Shown here: one piece after another, positions 6,192 to 45,340 of the stretch | Numbering within the stretch: position 1 is the first letter of the stretch | Layout: each line of letters begins with the position of its first letter | Assembly (NCBI GenBank): GCA_943359485.1 | Contig: CALRHR010000006.1 | Coordinates: 1 to 45,446 of the forward strand | DNA length: 45,446 nt | Direction: 5' to 3' | From: Candidatus Nomurabacteria bacterium | GTDB taxonomy: Bacteria > Patescibacteriota > Minisyncoccia > Phycocordibacterales > UBA9973 | Position numbers and translations under genes: made by a program | The notes under the pieces: model-generated | The model's input: only the letters and a program-made list of their open reading frames with translations | What the model was told of the DNA's origin: nothing | The model's database searches: none

Positions 6192-6267
6192 GCTAACTAG
6201 GCCCTAGGCCTTAGGCATTAGCAAGAAAAAATGCTAACGCCTAGAGCCTAGAGCCTAAAGCCTAGAA
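6192..6267 (+). repeat. Repeat R2, copy a, between rpsK and rpsD
   Basis: Inverted repeat built of cctag/taggc units: TAGGCATTAGCA pairs (one mismatch) with TGCTAACGCCTA across an A-rich loop, flanked by further gagcctag/ctaggcc units. Copies b and c precede dnaK and dnaJ. It ends two to three nt before the rpsD ATG, so it forms the rpsD translation-initiation leader. Confidence 0.85.
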
Positions 6268-21852: not shown

Positions 21853-21928
21853 AATAGGCCCTAGGAAACTAGGTTTTAGGCGTTAGCTGAATTAAAGCTA
21901 GAGCCTAGTGCCTAAAGCCTAATGCCTG
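21853..21928 (+). repeat. Repeat R2, copy c, leader of dnaJ
   Basis: aggccctaggaaactaggttttaggcgttagct, a short loop, then agctagagcctagtgcctaaagccta. It ends 8 nt before ATG 21937 and is homologous to the copies before rpsD and dnaK. Confidence 0.85.
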
Positions 21929-28094: not shown

Positions 28095-29108
28095 ATGGAA
28101 AAAAGAGAAAAAATAGTACTTACGGGCGATCGCCCAACGGGCAAGCTGCACTTGGGGCATTTCGTGGGTTCCATAAAAAATCGTGTAAAATTACAGGATG
28201 AGGCTAGCAAGTGTTTTTATATGGTCGCGGATATTCAAGCCCTTACTGATAATGCCGACAATCCAGAAAAAGTTCGCAACAATGTTATCGAGGTGGTACT
28301 AGACAATCTTGCTTGCGGAGTTGATCCAAAGAAGACAACTTTTTTTATTCAGTCACAGGTGCCAGAAATCGCTGAGTTGACTATTTTATTTATGAATTTG
28401 GTAACTTTACAACAATTATCTCACAATCCAACTATCAAAACAGAGTTAAAAGAACGAGGATTTGGCGAGAGCACGCCATTTGGATTTTTGGCTTACCCTG
28501 TATCGCAGGCGGCAGACATTCTTTTTTGTAAAGCCAATACTGTTCCAGTTGGCATAGATCAGTTGCCTGTTCTGGAACAAGCGAATGAGATTCTCAAAAA
28601 ATTTAATGCAACTTACAATGTTAACTTATTTTCTAAAATTACCGGAGTGGTTAGTGATATTCCTCGTCTTGTTGGTATAGATGGCGGTGCAAAAATGTCA
28701 AAATCTTTGGGAAATTGTATTTATCTTTCAGATTCAGATGTAGAAATAGAAAAGAAAGTAATGCAAGCTTATACTGATCCTGGGCATATTCATGTAGAGG
28801 ATAAAGGCAGGGTTGATGGTAATGTTGTGTTTACTTACTTAGATGATTTTGATGAAGATAAAAAAGGTGTGGAGGAGCTCAAGGCTCAATATCAAAAAGG
28901 TGGTCTCGGTGATATTGTTTTAAAAAAGAGATTGACCAAAGTTCTTATTGATCTTATTTCTCCAATACGCGCGAGGAGGGAAGAGCTTGCAAAAGACCCA
29001 AAATCAATAATGAAAATTCTAGAATCAGGAATCGAAAATGCAAGAAAAGAAGCAAGAAAAACAATGATTGAAGTACGCAAAGCGCTGAAGATTGATTATT
29101 TTAGTTAA
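28095..29108 (+). CDS. trpS: Tryptophanyl-tRNA synthetase
   Basis: 337 residues, class I synthetase charging tRNA-Trp. Signatures: TGDRPTGKLHLGHFVGS (HIGH at residues 19-22), FLAYPVSQAADILFCKANTVPVGIDQLPVLE, and GGAKMSKSLGNCIYLSD (KMSKS). Length and C-terminus (ENARKEARKTMIEVRKAL) are normal. It lies directly upstream of a TrpR-like gene and the trp leader, so Trp charging, Trp-dependent repression and Trp synthesis are grouped. No Trp-responsive T-box or leader is visible before trpS itself; its start follows the -10 box by seven nt. Confidence 0.97.
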   Translation: MEKREKIVLTGDRPTGKLHLGHFVGSIKNRVKLQDEASKCFYMVADIQALTDNADNPEKVRNNVIEVVLDNLACGVDPKKTTFFIQSQVPEIAELTILFMNLVTLQQLSHNPTIKTELKERGFGESTPFGFLAYPVSQAADILFCKANTVPVGIDQLPVLEQANEILKKFNATYNVNLFSKITGVVSDIPRLVGIDGGAKMSKSLGNCIYLSDSDVEIEKKVMQAYTDPGHIHVEDKGRVDGNVVFTYLDDFDEDKKGVEELKAQYQKGGLGDIVLKKRLTKVLIDLISPIRARREELAKDPKSIMKILESGIENARKEARKTMIEVRKALKIDYFS

Positions 29109-29127: not shown

Positions 29128-29141
29128 ACCAGCGTACTAGT
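29128..29141 (+). promoter_or_regulatory. TrpR-type operator upstream of trpR-like gene
   Basis: ACCAGCGTACTAGT, continuing TATGGTG. It matches the site at 29536-29549 (ACTAGCATACTAGT, then ATGATG) at 12 of 14 core positions. Both follow the E. coli TrpR operator layout CTAG-N4-CTAG, with the left half degenerate (CCAG) here. It lies just before the repressor gene and suggests autoregulation. Confidence 0.6.
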
Positions 29142-29151
29142 ATGGTGATGT

Positions 29152-29451
29152 GTGGAAATAAAATCTATGAAAAAAAATTCAGAACAATATAAAAAAGAAG
29201 TTTTGGAAGTGATTTATAAAATTGCTAAAGACAGAGCCCTGCTGCACGATTTTGTGAGAGATATTTTAACTCCGCATGAATTTGAGAATATTGCATTCAG
29301 GTGGCAGATAGTCAAGCGTCTAGCGAAAGGGGAGCATCATCAATCCATCGCTGCCGACTTGCACCTAGGAGTCTCGACTGTCACTCGGGGTTCTCGAGAG
29401 ATGAGGAAGAAGAAAGGTGGCTTCCAAAGAACTCTAAAATTACTAAAGTAA
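29152..29451 (+). CDS. TrpR/YerC-like Trp repressor family protein
   Basis: 99 residues from GTG 29152; ATG 29167 is an equally possible start (94 residues). All-helical TrpR family pattern: KEVLEVIYKIAKDRALLHDFVRDILTPHEFENIAFRWQIVKRLAKGEHHQSIAADLHLGVSTVTRGSREMRKKKGG. The last part is the helix-turn-helix, with SIAADLHLGVSTVTRGSRE very close to the recognition region of TrpR. In E. coli TrpR binds tryptophan and represses trp genes. Its place between trpS and trpBA, together with a matching operator before itself and before the trp leader, makes a real tryptophan repressor likely, although the related YerC subgroup has unknown ligands. Confidence 0.85.
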   Translation: MEIKSMKKNSEQYKKEVLEVIYKIAKDRALLHDFVRDILTPHEFENIAFRWQIVKRLAKGEHHQSIAADLHLGVSTVTRGSREMRKKKGGFQRTLKLLK

Positions 29452-29532
29452 AAACCTGCCCCGTACCGAGCTTGCTCTGGTTCAGGGTTATCCACAGAAA
29501 CACAGCACACCCCCTTGCTTTTATTTTTTATA

Positions 29533-29549
29533 TATACTAGCATACTAGT
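29533..29549 (+). promoter_or_regulatory. trp promoter -10 region with TrpR operator
   Basis: TATACT (29533-29538) is overlapped by ACTAGCATACTAGT (29536-29549). The latter has two CTAG half-sites with the same 4-bp spacing as the E. coli trp operator (ACTAG-TTAA-CTAGT). CATACT (29541-29546) is an alternative -10. Either way repressor binding would block polymerase. The leader peptide starts 3 or 6 nt further on. Confidence 0.7.
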
Positions 29550-29552
29550 ATG

Positions 29553-29642
29553 ATGGTATTAGATAAATTTAAATTAAATAATAAAAGAACAGGGAAGTCA
29601 TGGTGGGGCGCAGAGCTCAATGCTTTTGCGCTATTCTGTTGA
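29553..29642 (+). CDS. trpL: trp leader peptide (tandem Trp codons)
   Basis: 29-codon ORF starting ATG 29553 (ATG 29550 in the same frame is an alternative) and ending TGA 29640. The sequence is basic and then contains KSWWGAE: two adjacent TGG codons at 29601-29606, in a ORF with no other Trp. Such tandem Trp codons in a short ORF before trp genes are the hallmark of ribosome-mediated attenuation. The Trp codons sit just before segment 1 of the attenuator, and the stop lies just past segment 2, the geometry required for stalling to release segment 2. It lies directly after the TrpR-type operator. The peptide itself probably has no function. Confidence 0.75.
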   Translation: MVLDKFKLNNKRTGKSWWGAELNAFALFC

Positions 29643-29735
29643 TTTCTTCTAGCCACTAGAACCTAACTACTAGTCACTAACTCATTAAGGAATCCATTAA
29701 ACAGCGCAATAAAAAGCGCTGATTTTCGTTCTTTC
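29608..29735 (+). promoter_or_regulatory. trp attenuator with mutually exclusive hairpins
   Basis: Segment 1 GCGCAGAG (29608-29615) pairs with segment 2 TTTTGCGC (29624-29631). Segment 2 TTGCGCT (29626-29632) can instead pair perfectly with segment 3 AGCGCAA (29703-29709). Segment 3 CAGCGC (29702-29707) pairs with segment 4 GCGCTG (29716-29721), followed by attttcgttctttc, an intrinsic terminator. A ribosome stalled at the Trp codons (29601-29606) would cover segment 1, favouring 2:3 and read-through. One at the stop (29640) would cover segment 2, favouring 3:4 termination. A repeat R3 copy (29648-29681) sits between segments 2 and 3. Confidence 0.75.
29648..29681 (+). repeat. Repeat R3, copy 2, inside the trp leader
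   Basis: tctagccactagaacctaactactagtcactaa. It shares cactagaacct and ctactagtcactaa with the copy at 36937-36970. Confidence 0.75.
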
Positions 29736-29757: not shown

Positions 29758-29994
29758 ATGGGTTGGGCTAATAAGATGAATTTGCCTGTAGAAACTCCGG
29801 CTCGTAAACGAGCTAAGGAAAGTAGAGGAGGGCTGTTCGCTTCCAATGGTGAAGAGGGTCAGATCGTGGTGATTTGTCTCTCGGGCGAAGAGAATGATCT
29901 TCGCCAATTTCTCCAGAAATTCTTGGATGAGAAATACAATTTCCCCATCCATTCTAAGAAGGAAGAAGGGAACCCTGGAATGTTGGGATTATAG
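29758..29994 (+). CDS. Hypothetical protein between trp attenuator and trpB
   Basis: 78 residues from ATG 29758, or 72 from ATG 29776. I do not recognise it. The first ~30 residues are basic (PARKRAKESRGG); the rest has alternating hydrophobics and a helix-like part (GQIVVICLSGEENDLRQFLQKFLDEKYNFP), which looks like a small folded alpha/beta domain. GC content is about 50%, well above its neighbours, and there is no ribosome-binding site. It is flanked by the attenuator terminator upstream and two strong hairpins downstream. It would be the first gene of the trp transcript, so either a small regulator or an inserted cassette is possible. It may also not be translated. Confidence 0.5.
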   Translation: MGWANKMNLPVETPARKRAKESRGGLFASNGEEGQIVVICLSGEENDLRQFLQKFLDEKYNFPIHSKKEEGNPGMLGL

Positions 29995-30086: not shown

Positions 30087-31319
30087 ATGAAATCAAAAAT
30101 AAAAAATGGATATTTTGATAAATACGGTGGGGCGTATGTGCCCGAGATGCTTGTTCATGCGCTTAGAGAAATAGAGAGCGAATTTGAAAAGGCAAAAAAA
30201 GATAAAAAGTTCCAGACAGAATTTCAAGAATTACTCAGATCTTTTAGTGGCAGACCTACACCTTTAATTTATGCCAAAAATCTTACAAAACATTTTGGTG
30301 GAGCGAAACTTTACCTAAAAAATGAAGGCGCAAATCATACTGGCGCGCATAAAATTACCCACTGTATTGGTCAGGCCCTTATTGCAAAAAGGCTCGGCAA
30401 GAAAGAATTAATTGCTGAAACAGGTGCGGGACAGCATGGTGTGGCTACGGCAACCGTAGCGGCAAAATTTGGTTTAAAGTGTAAAATTTTTATGGGTGAG
30501 GTGGATATCGCCCGCCAACGCCCAAATGTTTTCTGGATGGAGCAGCTAGGGGCGAAAGTAATCAGTGTTTCTTCCGGCAGTAAAACTTTAAAAGATGCTG
30601 TGAATGAAGCGTTGAAATATTGGATGGCAAATTCAGACGAAAGTTACTATGTCATCGGTTCTGTTCTTGGTCCACATCCGTATCCACTTATGAACAGGAC
30701 TTTTCAATCCGTGATTGGCCAAGAAATCAAAAAACAAATAAAACAAAAAGAGCACAAGCTTCCTGATTTTGTGATTGCTTGTGTTGGTGGTGGTAGCAAT
30801 GCGATAGGTGCTTTTCATGAGTTTATAAAAAATAAAAAAGTTAGACTAATAGGTGTGGAGGCAGGTGGCACTGGGAAAAAACTTGGCCAGAATGCTTCCA
30901 GAAAAGAAAATGGAAGCCTTGGAATTTTTCAAGGATATAAATCACTATTTCTTCAAACAGAAGAAGGGCACATAGCTCCGACGCATAGTGTGGCGGCGGG
31001 ACTTGATTATCCCGGGATGGGGCCAGAACTCGCAGAGCTTTATAAAAATAAAAAAATGGAATTAAGTTCTGCATTAGACAGGGAAGCGATAGAAGCTTTC
31101 AAATTAACCACAAAACATGAAGGAATTATTCCAGCACTGGAGTCTGCTCACGCGCTTGCTCATGCCTATAAAGTTTTACCAAAATTAGCGCACAATAAAA
31201 TTGTGGTTGTAAATATTTCCGGCAGAGGGGATAAAGATCTCTTCAATGTGGCGCGCTCACTTAATGATAAAGAATTTAAAAAGTTTTTAGCTGAAGAAAT
31301 AAAAAGATATGAAAAATAA
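30087..31319 (+). CDS. trpB: Tryptophan synthase beta subunit
   Basis: 410 residues. PLP enzyme that joins indole and serine into tryptophan. The N-terminus is typical (YFDKYGGAYVPEMLVHAL). The PLP lysine is Lys89 in NHTGAHK, the catalytic glutamate Glu111 in AETGAGQHGVA. The phosphate loop is CVGGGSNAIGAFHEF and the C-terminus has HEGIIPALESAHALAHA and NISGRGDKD. The residues before NHTGAHK read LKNEGANHTG instead of the usual LKREDLNHTG, losing the REDL motif; this may affect subunit communication. Ordinary length. It overlaps trpA by 11 nt, so translation of the two is coupled. It belongs to the trp transcript controlled by the operator and attenuator upstream. Confidence 0.97.
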   Translation: MKSKIKNGYFDKYGGAYVPEMLVHALREIESEFEKAKKDKKFQTEFQELLRSFSGRPTPLIYAKNLTKHFGGAKLYLKNEGANHTGAHKITHCIGQALIAKRLGKKELIAETGAGQHGVATATVAAKFGLKCKIFMGEVDIARQRPNVFWMEQLGAKVISVSSGSKTLKDAVNEALKYWMANSDESYYVIGSVLGPHPYPLMNRTFQSVIGQEIKKQIKQKEHKLPDFVIACVGGGSNAIGAFHEFIKNKKVRLIGVEAGGTGKKLGQNASRKENGSLGIFQGYKSLFLQTEEGHIAPTHSVAAGLDYPGMGPELAELYKNKKMELSSALDREAIEAFKLTTKHEGIIPALESAHALAHAYKVLPKLAHNKIVVVNISGRGDKDLFNVARSLNDKEFKKFLAEEIKRYEK

Positions 31320-32106
31320 TATTGATATTGTTATTGAAAAAATAAAAAAAGAAAAGCGAATTGGAATTATGACTCATCTGGTAACAGGATATCCAACACT
31401 AAAATTTTCAGAAAAGATTGTAAAAGTGTTAGCTGAAAGCAGGGCGGATGTTATTGAAATTCAGATACCTTTTTCTGACCCGATGGCAGACGGGTCGGTT
31501 ATTGTTGGAGCTTGTCAGGAATCTTTAGAAAATGGCACACGGGTAAAAGATAGTTTTAAATTAGCAAAGTTTACTAATGATAATCTTCGAGTTCCAGTAG
31601 TTCTTATGACATATGCAAATATTGTAATTCATATGGGTATTAAAAAGTTTTGTGTTGCTTGTAAAGAAAGTGGTGTTTCTGGAATTATCGTACCCGATCT
31701 GCCTTATGACTCAGAAGAATGTAAAAAATTACGAAGATACTCAACACGAGCAAACATTCACCTCATTTATGTTATTTCTCCGGCGATAGAAGAGAGTGGG
31801 TTAAAAGAAATTAAAAAATTAGCCACTGGTTTTTTATACTGTACATCTAGGCAGGGTACTACGGGAACAGGAAAAAAATTTTCCCAAGATGTTTTGTCTT
31901 ACCTTACACGAATTAAAAAAAATTCGATAATTCCTCTAGCTGTTGGTTTCGGAATTTCTTCACCGAAAGATGTTGAATTAATAAAAAAACATTCAGAAAT
32001 TGTAGTAGTCGGAAGTGCAATAATACATATTATAAGAAAAAATAAAAACCCGAAGGTCCTATCGGCAGTTGGTAAATTCATGTCCGGACTTCAAAAAGTG
32101 AATTAA
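31309..32106 (+). CDS. trpA: Tryptophan synthase alpha subunit
   Basis: 265 residues, TIM barrel that cleaves indole-3-glycerol phosphate to indole and GAP. The start overlaps trpB by 11 nt. Catalytic residues: Glu50 in VIEIQIPFSDPMADG (usual ELGIPFSDPLADG) and Asp61 in the same motif. Further: LVTGYPT, GIIVPDLPYDSEE, SRQGTTGTGK (the usual region is SRxGVTG) and LAVGFGISSPKDV. All expected blocks are present, with several single changes. No trpC, D, E, F or G gene is in the window, so the source of indole-glycerol phosphate is unknown. This and trpB may salvage indole or anthranilate products from partners. Confidence 0.96.
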   Translation: MKNNIDIVIEKIKKEKRIGIMTHLVTGYPTLKFSEKIVKVLAESRADVIEIQIPFSDPMADGSVIVGACQESLENGTRVKDSFKLAKFTNDNLRVPVVLMTYANIVIHMGIKKFCVACKESGVSGIIVPDLPYDSEECKKLRRYSTRANIHLIYVISPAIEESGLKEIKKLATGFLYCTSRQGTTGTGKKFSQDVLSYLTRIKKNSIIPLAVGFGISSPKDVELIKKHSEIVVVGSAIIHIIRKNKNPKVLSAVGKFMSGLQKVN

Positions 32107-34318: not shown

Positions 34319-35704
34319 ATGAAAAACAGAATTTATATAAAAGATTTAAAAGAAAGTGTAGGTAAAGAGGTGGTCATTGCTGGATGGGTAGATGTTAGAC
34401 GGGATCAAGGCAAAATGGTGTTTTTTGATATGCGGGATATGACGGGCAAGGTGCAGTGCGTGACTTTGCCGGTCCATCCTGAGGCTATTATTATGGCTAA
34501 AGAAATTCGTCCTGAATGGGTGCTAGAAATAAAGGGCTTAGTCAAAGAACGTAATGATAAAAATGCGGTGCAAGGTGGTGGAGTGGAAATAGAAGTATTA
34601 AATATAGAAGTTTTAAATAAAGCAGAAACTTTGCCTTTTGATATTACGACAGACACAAGTGAAATAAACGAAGAAACACGTTTATCTTACAGATACCTTG
34701 ATCTGCGTTCAGATAGGATGCAGAAAAATATCAGAATGCGAAGCGAGTTTGTGAAAAGAGTTCGTGAATTTTTATTTTCAAAAATGTTTACAGAAATAGA
34801 GACTCCACTTTTAACAGAGTCTACCCCTGAAGGATCTCGTGACTTTGTCGTGCCTTCACGCTTAAATCCTGGTAAGTTTTATGCACTTCCTCAATCTCCA
34901 CAACAATACAAACAACTTCTCATGGTGGGTGGTATGGAAAAATATTTTCAAATTGCCCGAGCATTGCGTGATGAAGATTTACGAGCTGATAGAGGTTTTG
35001 AGCACACACAAGTAGACGTGGAAATGTCTTTTGTGGAGATGGAAGATGTTATGAATTTAATAGAAGAAATGATGACGACAGTAGTAGAGTCTATGGGTTT
35101 CGTAATAAAACAAAAGCCTTTTCCCAGGATTACTTACAAAGAGTCAATGGAAAAATATGGTGCAGATAAATTTGATATGCGAACTGAAGAAGAAAAGAAA
35201 GACAAAAAAATTCTGGCATATGCTTGGGTAGTGAACTTTCCATTTTTTGAAAAGACAGATGAAGGTAAATGGACTTTTACTCACAATCCTTTTTCTATGC
35301 CAATCCCAGAACATATAGAATTTTTAATGAAAGGGGAGAACATAGAAAATATTTTAACAACTCAGTATGATTTGGTTTGTAACGGTTATGAGTCAGGTGG
35401 AGGTTCTATTCGTGCTCATAAACCAGAAATTCTGGAAGCAACATATAAAGTCATGGGATATACTAAAGAAGAGATAGAGGACAGAATCGGCCACATGCTT
35501 GAGGCTTTTAAATATGGAGTACCATCACACGGAGGGATAGCCCTAGGGGTAGAACGCAACCTAATGAATTTAACAGGGGAGACGTATCTTCGTGAGGTGG
35601 TGTCTTTTCCTATGACTCGTGGTGGAAAAACAGCAGTAATGAATGCGCCTAAACCATTAGAAGAAAAACAACTAAAAGAGTTAGGTATAAAGATTGGTAA
35701 ATAA
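34319..35704 (+). CDS. aspS: Aspartyl-tRNA synthetase, compact form lacking GAD domain
   Basis: 461 residues, class II synthetase; the anticodon-binding OB fold comes first (VVIAGWVDVRRDQGKMVFFDMRDMTGKVQCVT). The bacterial-type motif 2 region is intact: SPQQYKQLLMVGGMEKYFQIARALRDEDLRADRGFEHTQVDVEMSF. Motif 3 is HGGIALGVERNLMNLTGE. Bacterial AspRS has about 590 residues because of a GAD insert after the catalytic first half. Here KYGADKFDMR (the start of that segment) runs almost at once into KKILAYAWVVNFPFFEK, so the GAD insert appears absent. Whether it charges only tRNA-Asp or also tRNA-Asn cannot be told. The RFK-like gene follows six nt after its stop. Confidence 0.95.
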   Translation: MKNRIYIKDLKESVGKEVVIAGWVDVRRDQGKMVFFDMRDMTGKVQCVTLPVHPEAIIMAKEIRPEWVLEIKGLVKERNDKNAVQGGGVEIEVLNIEVLNKAETLPFDITTDTSEINEETRLSYRYLDLRSDRMQKNIRMRSEFVKRVREFLFSKMFTEIETPLLTESTPEGSRDFVVPSRLNPGKFYALPQSPQQYKQLLMVGGMEKYFQIARALRDEDLRADRGFEHTQVDVEMSFVEMEDVMNLIEEMMTTVVESMGFVIKQKPFPRITYKESMEKYGADKFDMRTEEEKKDKKILAYAWVVNFPFFEKTDEGKWTFTHNPFSMPIPEHIEFLMKGENIENILTTQYDLVCNGYESGGGSIRAHKPEILEATYKVMGYTKEEIEDRIGHMLEAFKYGVPSHGGIALGVERNLMNLTGETYLREVVSFPMTRGGKTAVMNAPKPLEEKQLKELGIKIGK

Positions 35705-36040: not shown

Positions 36041-36954
36041 AAAATTCCACTGGTCCTGTTTTTATTATTATCGCCGCATTACTCTGGGCGTTTGATGGTT
36101 TGATCCGTCAGCATTTATACTCTCTACCCCCGATTACGATAATATTTTTTGAACACTTAATTGGTTTAATTATTTTATCTCCGTTTGTTTTCAAATATGT
36201 TCGGGAGACGCGGCTTGAAAAAAGAGAATGGTGGCTCCTCGTTCTGGTAGCAATTTTAAGCGGACTTTTTGGTACGCTCTGGTTCACTACCGCGCTCGGG
36301 AAAGTACATTTTATTTCTATCTCAGTTGTATTTCTCTTGCAAAAACTTCAGCCAATATTTGCTATCACTACTGCTCGGATTTTTTTGAAAGAAAAATTAG
36401 ATGCTAGATATATTAAATGGGCGGTTCTGGCGCTTTTGTCCGCTTATTTCGTCACTTTTCCAAATGGCGTGGTAAATCTACAGACCGGCGAAGGTACGAT
36501 AATTGCTGCGCTTTACGCGCTTGGAGCCGCTTTTGCCTGGGGGTCTTCCACCACATTTTCCAAAATGCTCTTGGGCCGTGTTCGTGCGGAGGTCAGTACT
36601 TTTTATAGATTTTTATTTACTACAATTATTGCACTGCCTGTTTTACTCTTATTTGGTAAAAGTACTACCGGAAGCCTTGCCTTGCCAAATATTTCTCAAT
36701 TTGGTTTTCTCATCTTGATTGCTGTCTCTACTGGCATGGTGGCTCTACTCATTTATTATAAAGGACTCGCAAAAACTCCGGTACACATTTCTACAATTCT
36801 TGAACTCACTTTTCCTTTTGTTGCAATATTTTTAGATTATATTGTAAACAATACCGTACTTTCCCCATTGCAATGGATTTCTGCCCTCGTTCTCGTTTTT
36901 AGTATTTATCAAATAGCACGACTTCGTGAGAATTCACTAGAACCTAGAACCTAG
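36034..36954 (+). CDS. EamA/DMT-family transporter
   Basis: 306 residues with about ten transmembrane segments in two EamA halves. First half: GPVFIIIAALLWAFDGLIRQHLYSLPPITIIFFEHLIGLIILSPFV and LLVLVAILSGLFGTLWFTTALGKVHFISISVVFLLQKLQPIFAI. Second half: GTIIAALYALGAAFAWGSSTTFSKML, FLFTTIIALPVLLLF and LTFPFVAIFLDYIVNNTVLSPLQWISALVLVFSIYQIA. Drug/metabolite transporters usually move small metabolites; the substrate here is unknown. The C-terminus (SLEPRT) is coded by repeat R3. It overlaps the riboflavin kinase gene by 7 nt and precedes the pterin dehydratase by 17 nt. Confidence 0.92.
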   Translation: MLKNSTGPVFIIIAALLWAFDGLIRQHLYSLPPITIIFFEHLIGLIILSPFVFKYVRETRLEKREWWLLVLVAILSGLFGTLWFTTALGKVHFISISVVFLLQKLQPIFAITTARIFLKEKLDARYIKWAVLALLSAYFVTFPNGVVNLQTGEGTIIAALYALGAAFAWGSSTTFSKMLLGRVRAEVSTFYRFLFTTIIALPVLLLFGKSTTGSLALPNISQFGFLILIAVSTGMVALLIYYKGLAKTPVHISTILELTFPFVAIFLDYIVNNTVLSPLQWISALVLVFSIYQIARLRENSLEPRT

Positions 36955-36970
36955 CTACTAGTCACTAATT
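36937..36970 (+). repeat. Repeat R3, copy 3
   Basis: cactagaacctagaacctagctactagtcactaa. It spans the last codons and stop of the EamA gene and the gap before the pterin dehydratase. Confidence 0.8.
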
Positions 36971-40842: not shown

Positions 40843-41280
40843 TTACGAACTCAAACGCAACCCTTTCCCAAGTTTGGAAAGAGTGGTATGCGAAACTGTT
40901 TTTGAGTTTCGTCCCGAGCTTTTAGGGGGGAGTGTAGAGAGGCGATTCAAAATCAAACGATATCCACCGAGAGGACCTTTGAGCCATTTTGCAATGCGGG
41001 CGATAGTCGTGGGGGAGAGGCCCGTGTCTTCTCTAATAGCTTCGTACTGTACATCTTTGGAAAGCAGGGTGGCAGCTTCGAGTCTGTTTGCAAATTCTTT
41101 AATTTCTTTTTCGGTCATCAGGTCACGCAGAAAACGCTGCGCTTCATCCGCATTTTTCAGTACCAAAACAGCTTTCACTAGCTGTCCATTTTTCTTTGTA
41201 TTCCAGTCGATTTTAAGGCCAATCCCTTGGACCAGCTTTACCACCCCAACTGATGTATTTTTATTCATTCCTTTACTCAT
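40843..41280 (-). CDS. TrpR-like (YerC/YecD-type) regulator 2
   Basis: 145 residues from ATG 41280; a much longer open frame upstream crosses the promoter and is not used. The TrpR-like core is LRDLMTEKEIKEFANRLEAATLLSKDVQYEAIREDTGLSPTTIARIAKWLKGPLGGYRLILNRL, with a helix-turn-helix at DTGLSPTTIARIAKWL. It has an N-terminal extension of about 45 residues and a Ser/Thr-rich C-terminus. The perfect promoter TTGACT-17-TATAGT lies 6 nt before the start. It is divergent from a kynurenine-formamidase-like gene; three spaced ACTATA repeats lie between (41287-41310) and may be its operator. It is clearly distinct from the repressor at 29152. Confidence 0.8.
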   Translation of the reverse strand: MSKGMNKNTSVGVVKLVQGIGLKIDWNTKKNGQLVKAVLVLKNADEAQRFLRDLMTEKEIKEFANRLEAATLLSKDVQYEAIREDTGLSPTTIARIAKWLKGPLGGYRLILNRLSTLPPKSSGRNSKTVSHTTLSKLGKGLRLSS

Positions 41281-41286
41281 CCCGCT

Positions 41287-41315
41287 ACTATAGCAAACTA
41301 TATTACTATAGTCAA
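41287..41315 (-). promoter_or_regulatory. Promoter of TrpR-like gene 2 with ACTATA repeats
   Basis: Minus-strand TTGACT (41315-41310), 17-bp spacer, TATAGT (41292-41287), extended by TGC. ACTATA occurs on the plus strand at 41287, 41297 and 41305, so a repressor could cover the promoter. The -10 ends 6 nt before the ATG. Confidence 0.8.
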
Positions 41316-41364
41316 GTGTAGTAGATAATGGGGTGGGGAAAACTTTATACTCAGGATTTGTCTG

Positions 41365-41373
41365 TGCTATGCT
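41365..41373 (+). promoter_or_regulatory. Extended -10 promoter of the cyclase gene
   Basis: TGCTATGCT, 6 nt before ATG 41380. Confidence 0.55.
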
Positions 41374-41379
41374 GTATGG

Positions 41380-42060
41380 ATGAATAAAGAATTTAAAGTT
41401 GTTGATCTTACTCATACACTTTCGCCGGAAATTCTAACTTGGGATGGAAGTTGTGGATTTGAAATGGCGACAACACTTGATTATGCAGATTGTACTCATC
41501 CGGATCTTTTTCGAAAACATAGTTTGAAAATGGAATGTGGTATCGGCACGCACATAGATGCCCCGGCGCATGTTGTTCTAGATGGGAGAACAGTTGATAA
41601 ACTTATTATGGAAGAATTAGTAACTGGTTGCATTGTCATTGATGTCAGCTCCGAAGCTCATGAGAATTATATGATCATGCCGGAGGTTGTCGAAAAATTT
41701 GAAAAAAAATATGGAGAAATAAAATCTAATAGTTTTGTAATTTTTTATACAGGATGGGACAAACACTGGAACGATACAGAAAAATATAACAATAATCATA
41801 AATTCCCTAGCGTCGATATTTCGACTGCGAAACTTCTTATGGAAAGAAATATCGCAGGTTTGGGTATCGATACTCTCTCAGCGGATACGGGAATAAACGG
41901 TTTCCCCGTGCATCGAGAGATTTTAGGCGCGGATAAATATCTTGTGGAAAATGTTGCGAATGCAAGAGAGTTACCGTCAAGCGGATCAAGAATTTTAGTA
42001 TTGCCAATGAAAATAAAAGACGGGACAGAAGCACCTGTGCGGTTAGTAGCGTTTATATAA
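41380..42060 (+). CDS. Cyclase-family (kynurenine-formamidase-like) hydrolase
   Basis: 226 residues. The cyclase-family metal site is GIGTHIDAPAHVV (HxGTHxDxPxH type), preceded by VVDLTHTLSPEILTWDG at the N-terminus and followed by FVIFYTGWDKHW and AGLGIDTLSAD. KynB, a family member, hydrolyses N-formylkynurenine in tryptophan breakdown; other members act on isatin or are uncharacterised. The divergent TrpR-like regulator suggests an aromatic or tryptophan-linked substrate (inference). Its 3' end overlaps the end of convergent pepN by 18 nt. Confidence 0.85.
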   Translation: MNKEFKVVDLTHTLSPEILTWDGSCGFEMATTLDYADCTHPDLFRKHSLKMECGIGTHIDAPAHVVLDGRTVDKLIMEELVTGCIVIDVSSEAHENYMIMPEVVEKFEKKYGEIKSNSFVIFYTGWDKHWNDTEKYNNNHKFPSVDISTAKLLMERNIAGLGIDTLSADTGINGFPVHREILGADKYLVENVANARELPSSGSRILVLPMKIKDGTEAPVRLVAFI

Positions 42061-44572: not shown

Positions 44573-45340
44573 GTGGAAACCCAAAATTATCAGAGTTACC
44601 AAATAAAAGTTAACGGTTTTGAGGGTCCATTTGGATTGCTTCTTGATCTCGTGGAAAAAAGAAAGCTTTTCATTAACGATGTTTCTCTTTCGGCGGTGAC
44701 CGAGGACTTTTTGAACTATATGAGCAAGTTAGAGGGTCTATATCCTGGGGAAATTTCTAGTTTTGTGTTGGTGGCGTCTACTTTGCTTTTAATTAAATCA
44801 AAATCTTTACTTCCTAATTTGAATTTGACGGACGAGGAAAAAGGCGATATTAAAAATCTCGAAGAGCGTCTGCGGTTGTATGAGCTTTTTATAAAATTGG
44901 GTGGTAATGTTAAAAGTATGTTTGGCAAGGAAATGATTTTTGCGCCACTCGAGCGAAAGTCAGAAATTCTAGTGTTTTTGCCAGATAGCCAAATCACCAA
45001 AGAAAGCATGATGTATTTTGCGCGCGAAGTTTTAGGTGGAATACCGAAAAAAGTTTTTTTACCAGAAACGGATGTGAAGAAAGTTATATCTATTGAAGAG
45101 ATGATAGATAAATTGACGGAGAGAATAACAAGTACAATGAGAATGAGCTTCTCAGATTTTTCTGGTAAAAAGGGTGGGACACATACGCGTGAAGAAAAAG
45201 TGACAGTTATAGTGGGGTTTTTAGCAATGCTGGAATTAGTGAGAAATGGAATATTAGATGCAGTGCAAAATAATCACCGAGAAGATATTATTATTAGTAA
45301 GCAGGTTCTAGAACCTAGAAACTATGAACCTAGAAACTAA
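44573..45340 (+). CDS. scpA: Segregation and condensation protein A
   Basis: 255 residues from a GTG start, fixed by the -10 box 6 nt before it. ScpA is the kleisin that bridges SMC heads and binds ScpB in the chromosome condensation complex. Family blocks: YQIKVNGFEGPFGLLLDLVEKRKLFINDVSLSAVTEDFLNYMSKLEGL, ISSFVLVASTLLLIKSKSLLP and EEKVTVIVGFLAMLELVRNGILDAVQ. The last ten residues (VLEPRNYEPRN) are coded by repeat R3, and the gene overlaps scpB by 17 nt within that repeat. Confidence 0.97.
   Translation: METQNYQSYQIKVNGFEGPFGLLLDLVEKRKLFINDVSLSAVTEDFLNYMSKLEGLYPGEISSFVLVASTLLLIKSKSLLPNLNLTDEEKGDIKNLEERLRLYELFIKLGGNVKSMFGKEMIFAPLERKSEILVFLPDSQITKESMMYFAREVLGGIPKKVFLPETDVKKVISIEEMIDKLTERITSTMRMSFSDFSGKKGGTHTREEKVTVIVGFLAMLELVRNGILDAVQNNHREDIIISKQVLEPRNYEPRN
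45305..45338 (+). repeat. Repeat R3, copy 4, spanning the scpA/scpB overlap
   Basis: ggttctagaacctagaaactatgaacctagaaact. The repeat is translated twice: as the tail of ScpA (LEPRNYEPRN) and, one frame over, as the MNLET start of ScpB. Confidence 0.75.

Follow-up and report, generated by a model that had tools for sequence, protein, structure and literature searches.

A putative tryptophan-responsive attenuator layered on TrpR repression ahead of trpBA in a Patescibacteria genome

Members of the Patescibacteria are commonly portrayed as bacteria that have shed their biosynthetic and regulatory functions. We analysed a 45,446 nt stretch of DNA from Candidatus Nomurabacteria (contig CALRHR010000006.1, hereafter the window), belonging to a genome of 713 kb in 20 contigs with 99.8% completeness, for which a first-pass annotation had proposed a leader-peptide attenuator ahead of a two-gene trp operon. 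The gene pair was borne out by family matches, as trpB (30087-31319, plus strand; TIGR00263, 583 bits) and trpA (31309-32106, plus strand; TIGR00262, 221 bits), with the start of trpA overlapping trpB by 11 bases. The annotation had left out trpS, trpR, the TrpR operator and aspS, and the gene order reads trpS, trpR, leader, a 78-codon ORF, trpB and trpA, with aspS (34319-35704) further downstream. The tryptophan--tRNA ligase gene trpS (28095-29108, plus strand; TIGR00233, 256 bits, above cut-off) is the upstream neighbour. The 78-codon ORF (29758-29994), between the attenuator and trpB, had no family matches, and the short ORF 3′ of the attenuator in the related locus L001 is unrelated to it. 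No chorismate-binding gene of the TrpE or anthranilate synthase type was found in the host genome, and hence trpBA probably constitutes an indole-salvage operon.

The leader ORF runs on the plus strand from an ATG at 29550 to a TGA at 29640-29642 and encodes MMVLDKFKLNNKRTGKSWWGAELNAFALFC; an adjacent in-frame ATG at 29553 is an alternative start, giving the 29 codons of the first-pass annotation, of which all coordinates were exact. Its only Trp codons are the tandem pair at 29601-29606, which abuts RNA segment 1 (GGCGCAGAG, 29607-29615), and the stop codon is located just 3′ of segment 2 (TTTTGCGCT, 29624-29632), as annotated. This geometry suits attenuation, since stalling on the Trp codons would leave segment 1 masked by the ribosome, and a ribosome that has reached the stop codon would mask segment 2. 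An out-of-frame ORF at 29599 with an SD-like sequence (GTCATGGTGG) was also considered, and was dropped because its ATG is missing in L001.

The three pairings and the T-rich run proposed previously were present base for base, all on the plus strand. Segment 1 pairs with segment 2 (29607-29615 with 29624-29632, local hairpin of -14.0 kcal/mol), while TTGCGCT within segment 2 (29626-29632) also pairs with AGCGCAA (29703-29709, -10.8 kcal/mol) in segment 3 (29702-29709). The latter is the partner of either segment 2, in the antiterminator, or segment 4 (29716-29721), the 3′ arm of the terminator hairpin, by pairing of CAGCGC (29702-29707) with GCGCTG (about -9 to -10.5 kcal/mol), followed by the U-rich tail ATTTTCGTTCTTT (29722-29734) with a conserved GTTCTTT (29728-29734). 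The antiterminator contains the outer helix that had been annotated, and also an inner helix that had been missed, formed by GATTTCTT (29641-29648), which overlaps the stop codon, and AAGGAATC (29687-29694). The terminator of the window is modest and its T-run moderate. Folding of the whole region, as the annotation had suggested, gave a z-score of -2.9, with a minimum-energy structure that mixes the helices, so that single-sequence folding is not decisive on its own. A script searching for TGGTGG followed by the 1:2, 2:3 and 3:4 helices in register and a T-rich run scored the window at -43.6 kcal/mol, a value equalled by 6 of 10,000 dinucleotide-preserving shuffles, and at a threshold of about -33 kcal/mol it passed 10/16 candidate CPR trp leaders versus approximately 18 of about 1,045 other TGGTGG sites. 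The Rfam Trp leader models did not match the window even at E-values up to 10, nor did the T-box covariance model RF00230, and the one hit obtained, on the opposite strand, is unrelated and due to chance.

The window is strongly enriched in heptad CTAG repeats (CTAGNNNCTAG; 33 versus 4.5 expected), which occur at 115-125, 6197-6251, 21898-21915, 29649-29680, 36937-36968 and 45308-45340. One copy lies within the loop of the antiterminator, as is also the case in L195, L196, L206 and L216.

The TrpR protein was used as query against 80 genomes of the genus, 36 of which have homologues, and we examined 37 loci, consisting of the 36 fetched trpR loci and the window. The same leader was present in 32/37, immediately or a short way downstream of trpR or of its first gene. 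All 32 leaders keep the first Trp codon, and the second is TGG in 28 and CGN (Arg) in the other four, so that the tandem expected from the first-pass annotation was conserved at its first position, whereas a minority of leaders have Arg, Phe or Tyr at the second. The part of the leader before the Trp codons varies in length, and of the 28 automatically parsed leaders, 23 have the stop at a distance of 39 nt from the first Trp codon. The nearest orthologue is L001/L198, from a Nomurabacteria MAG (trpB 84% identical). L001 shares the promoter, operator, leader C-terminus and the TTGCGC/GCGCAA words with the window, and differs by 15 nt (five codons, in frame) within the variable part of the leader, with its terminator re-paired as AGTGGCGC/GTGTCACT.

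The alternative pairings were retained in these orthologues. In the 32 leaders, 91.2% of the cells of the 1:2 helix were paired, with compensatory changes and a covariation that was matched by 0/500 column shuffles, and the 2:3 structure including the inner helix was 91.4% paired (alignment A3), with the eight pairs of the inner helix reaching 90.2%. For 2:3, seven pairs had changed on both sides and none of 500 shuffles matched any of five measures; these shuffle counts ignore relatedness, which is retained in controls where the 2:3 pairing was slid by 1-3 columns, and these were 35-53% paired. The 3:4 hairpin was scored sequence by sequence rather than from the MAFFT alignment, because MAFFT misaligned the 3′ terminator arm, and was found with compensatory pairs in 30/32 leaders, most of which have a U-rich tail behind the hairpin; L216 and L217 did not have a clean 3:4 hairpin, and L205 did not have a good T-run. 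Columns 125-127 of 3:4 swap among G-C, C-G, A-U and U-A pairs, and column 127 is common to 2:3 and 3:4. At the level of comparative genomics, this pattern shows a leader switch that is real and under selection.

The C-terminus of the leader peptide (SWWGA..AFALFC) is alike in many members, as would be expected if the nascent peptide itself sensed tryptophan and arrested the ribosome in the manner of TnaC, without codon-dependent stalling and RNA pairing. This likeness is explained by the position of segments 1 and 2, which fall within those same codons. Furthermore, in the divergent leaders L221 (FWWTGSKTFEPVL) and L223 (SWWQAREFFGRPL) the peptide and the segments were altered together while the pairing pattern was kept, which points to the RNA pairing rather than the peptide sequence as the conserved feature; peptide conservation independent of the RNA pairing was not seen in these two leaders. 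The TnaC arrest peptide is characterised by a Trp..Asp..Pro spacing, and no such spacing was seen in the leader. An arrest peptide is thus extremely unlikely here, and codon-dependent stalling coupled to RNA pairing is the preferred reading.

Directly upstream of the leader, the trpR gene (29167-29451, plus strand) encodes a Trp repressor family protein (PF01371, 52.8 bits versus a cut-off of 27), whose PDB matches are Trp repressors and whose score of 39.2 does not reach the 67.25 required by the NCBIfam TrpR equivalog model. A second TrpR-superfamily protein, of the YerC/YecD type, is encoded at 40843-41415 on the minus strand (TIGR02531, above cut-off). A candidate TrpR operator with the CTAG-N4-CTAG arrangement (ACTAGCATACTAGT, 29536-29549) overlaps the -10 box of the predicted leader promoter, and was the sole exact match to ACTAGNNNACTAGT in a pattern scan of the 713 kb genome. 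As in a TrpR regulon, the locus thus has both a TrpR homologue and a promoter bearing a CTAG-N4-CTAG operator. The same pattern scan gave a putative operator with one mismatch (ACCAGCGTACTAGT, 29128-29141, plus strand) upstream of trpR, where a similar sequence (GCGTACTAGTATG) is also found in L195, L196 and L206, and which probably serves trpR autoregulation. The attenuator that had been annotated stood, with its account refined by a TrpR operator beneath attenuation and by the trpR gene that had been missed. A near-perfect TrpR operator (ACTAGCATACTAGA) was also noted at G000:C9:19357-19370 (L160), in the short gap between two transketolase-like genes, and this may be due to chance.

The predicted promoter (29515-29543, plus strand) consists of a -35 box TTGCTT (29515-29520), a 17 nt spacer and a -10 box TAGCAT (29538-29543). 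It was assigned by fixed-offset alignment, as the automatic promoter picker was inconsistent. The arrangement of ATAC, TAGCAT or TATCAT (-10), ACTAGT and ATG is fixed, with the same -10 position and ATG spacing in 20/20 group-I trpR loci, and nearly all of these have a TTGCTT- or TTGACT-like -35 box 17 nt upstream. The predicted transcription start falls on the first base of the leader ATG, a geometry that the first-pass annotation had missed, and neither the window nor several of the other leaders contain another in-frame start except an adjacent one. With its start codon at the 5′ end predicted from the promoter, the leader mRNA is probably leaderless, and leaderless translation of the leader peptide is likely.

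A covariance model (R1) was built from the leaders of the genus, including that of the window, which it matched at 29595-29734 with 97 bits as a part of its own training set. Leaders matching R1 were present in 37/80 genus genomes, among them four (G102, G1089, G019 and G017) that were outside the training set and that lack a match to trpR. In these four leaders a Trp codon is retained and the codon after it specifies Trp, Phe or Tyr, and the 1:2, two-helix 2:3 and 3:4 structures could be folded for three of them. The ribosome-mediated trp attenuation put forward in the first-pass annotation is thus supported by the 32 genus leaders as well as by leaders that did not contribute to the model. 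The three trpR-less leaders checked closely are located directly behind a trpS-like gene without a CTAG operator, and this joint absence of operator and trpR supports the operator assignment. In the wider order, 5 of 279 sampled genomes matched R1, these being three of the genus and two weak matches without a recognisable leader, and hence the family is essentially restricted to the genus. WW-containing ORFs in L004/L089, L026/L142 and many Deltaproteobacteria were rejected as candidates, as they were inside coding genes or lacked a switch.

The persistence of leaders in genomes without trpR or operator indicates that they do not need TrpR, and bears on the question whether TrpR repression alone is functional in the host genome, with leader and terminator as decayed relics. 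The moderate terminator of the window would fit such decay, as would the four loci with an operator that is not directly followed by a leader (L203, L209, L214 and L224). Set against this, the window retains all elements, including the invariant Trp codon, the 39 nt spacing, both antiterminator helices and the 3:4 hairpin, which makes decay very unlikely and favours a leader working alongside the repressor.

Based on sequence, alternative helices, covariation, genus-wide conservation and the linkage of operator and trpR, we infer ribosome stalling, termination, TrpR binding and leaderless translation, and propose that trpBA is very probably controlled by a Trp-responsive, ribosome-mediated transcription attenuator following trpL logic and layered on TrpR repression. 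When tryptophan is plentiful, TrpR would occupy the CTAG-N4-CTAG operator that overlaps the -10 box, and transcripts escaping this repression would start at or next to the leader AUG; their ribosomes would reach the UGA at 29640-29642 and cover segment 2, allowing the 3:4 terminator to form. When charged tRNA-Trp is short, the ribosome would stall at 29601-29606 on segment 1, segment 2 would pair with segment 3 (29626-29632 with 29703-29709, and 29641-29648 with 29687-29694), and RNA polymerase would read through the resulting antiterminator into trpBA. An effect of the switch on translation initiation or mRNA stability, and not on transcription termination, could be read from the SD-like GGAGG that sometimes adjoins the GTTCTTT 3′ of the hairpin (L001 and L218) and from the few leaders without a good U-tract, such as L205, but is very improbable given the U-rich tails following most of the 30 hairpins and the start of the trpB gene of the window approximately 350 nt downstream, with no SD sequence sequestered by segments 3 or 4. 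Transcription attenuation, as proposed here, would imply that CPR cells coordinate transcription with translation, sense charged tRNA and probably translate leaderless mRNAs. It would also provide a Trp-responsive element amenable to testing in E. coli or in a CPR-host system that can be cultivated.

The proposed switch resembles the E. coli trpL/TrpR system in its short leader with Trp codons, its mutually exclusive 1:2, 2:3 and 3:4 helices, its U-rich terminator, and a TrpR operator over the promoter with trp synthase genes downstream. It differs from E. coli trp in its occurrence in Patescibacteria, the location of trpR directly upstream between trpS and leader, the predicted leaderless leader mRNA, the two-helix antiterminator, the distance of 13 codons from the first Trp codon to a stop codon just 3′ of segment 2, the absence of an Rfam match, and the cargo that varies between genomes. 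The predicted working principle therefore matches that of E. coli trp, whereas the lineage is new and the architecture is its own. The order of trpR, intergenic region, trpB and trpA is shared with trpRBA of Chlamydia trachomatis, which is likewise reduced and dependent on a host, and lacks the early trp genes. TrpL-mediated attenuation has been argued to be absent from C. trachomatis, which uses the YtgR repressor instead (PMC7755916), and the chlamydial trpL is putative and structurally unproven, with a WW leader in C. felis (PMC3937554), whereas the attenuator described here is clear and backed by covariation. A search of the open-access literature gave no earlier report of CPR attenuators, and no open-access papers joined 'trp operon' with 'Patescibacteria'. 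One member of the Patescibacteria would keep both textbook layers of trp control for a probable indole-salvage operon.

The leader is not confined to trpBA. Genes behind it include trpBA, trpB alone, a TrpB2-like gene, trpE, trpE with trpG, and a trpC-like gene with trpE, as well as non-Trp cargo such as an Asp/Glu racemase, PRPP synthetase and others, with aspS further down, while trpD follows an operator without leader in L224. The cassette sits between trpS and aspS, with aspS often following. We lean towards the interpretation that the genus carries a portable cassette, composed of trpS, trpR, a TrpR-operated promoter with leaderless leader peptide, a composite antiterminator, variable cargo and aspS, and that this is the first ribosome-mediated attenuation described in Patescibacteria. 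The GTTCTTT word is kept just 3′ of the terminator in most leaders, and also occurs in some 5′ regions linked to trpR where no leader directly follows the operator (L203, L214 and L222). It is possibly a boxA-like element, and the rRNA leader carries TACTCTTTGACAAA for comparison, but this reading is unproven, as the window shows no enrichment of the word.

In other CPR lineages, trpB is preceded by WW leaders of a different kind that follow the same 1-2-3-4 logic (L082, L083, L153, L135, L092, L126 and L130), and several of these non-genus leaders have a -10 box followed by 6 nt and the start codon. If the cassette interpretation is correct, such unrelated leaders would mean repeated origin or remodelling of the strategy among CPR bacteria. 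The trpB gene itself is rare, being present in 9/384 genomes of the class and 25/380 of the phylum. A second conserved mini-ORF, M..(F)FK.HCTE.WR, is located between terminator and trpB in L153, L082, L083, L126 and L130; it holds one Trp codon and might encode a second regulatory peptide.

Finally, sister lineages of the same order have T-box-like leaders before their trpBA orthologues (L149, at 797-1033, L150 and L151), with Rfam matches of 30-40 bits that are below the gathering score, and TrpBA proteins that are 82-84% and approximately 67% identical. T-box leaders are likewise responsive to uncharged tRNA and govern genes for amino acids, whereas the switch described here is built around a translated ORF. 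The occurrence of both types of leader at trpBA is an apparent case of regulatory replacement, and would represent a natural swap of tRNA-sensing controls at the same operon. Each of the three T-box-like leaders is followed by a short ORF.
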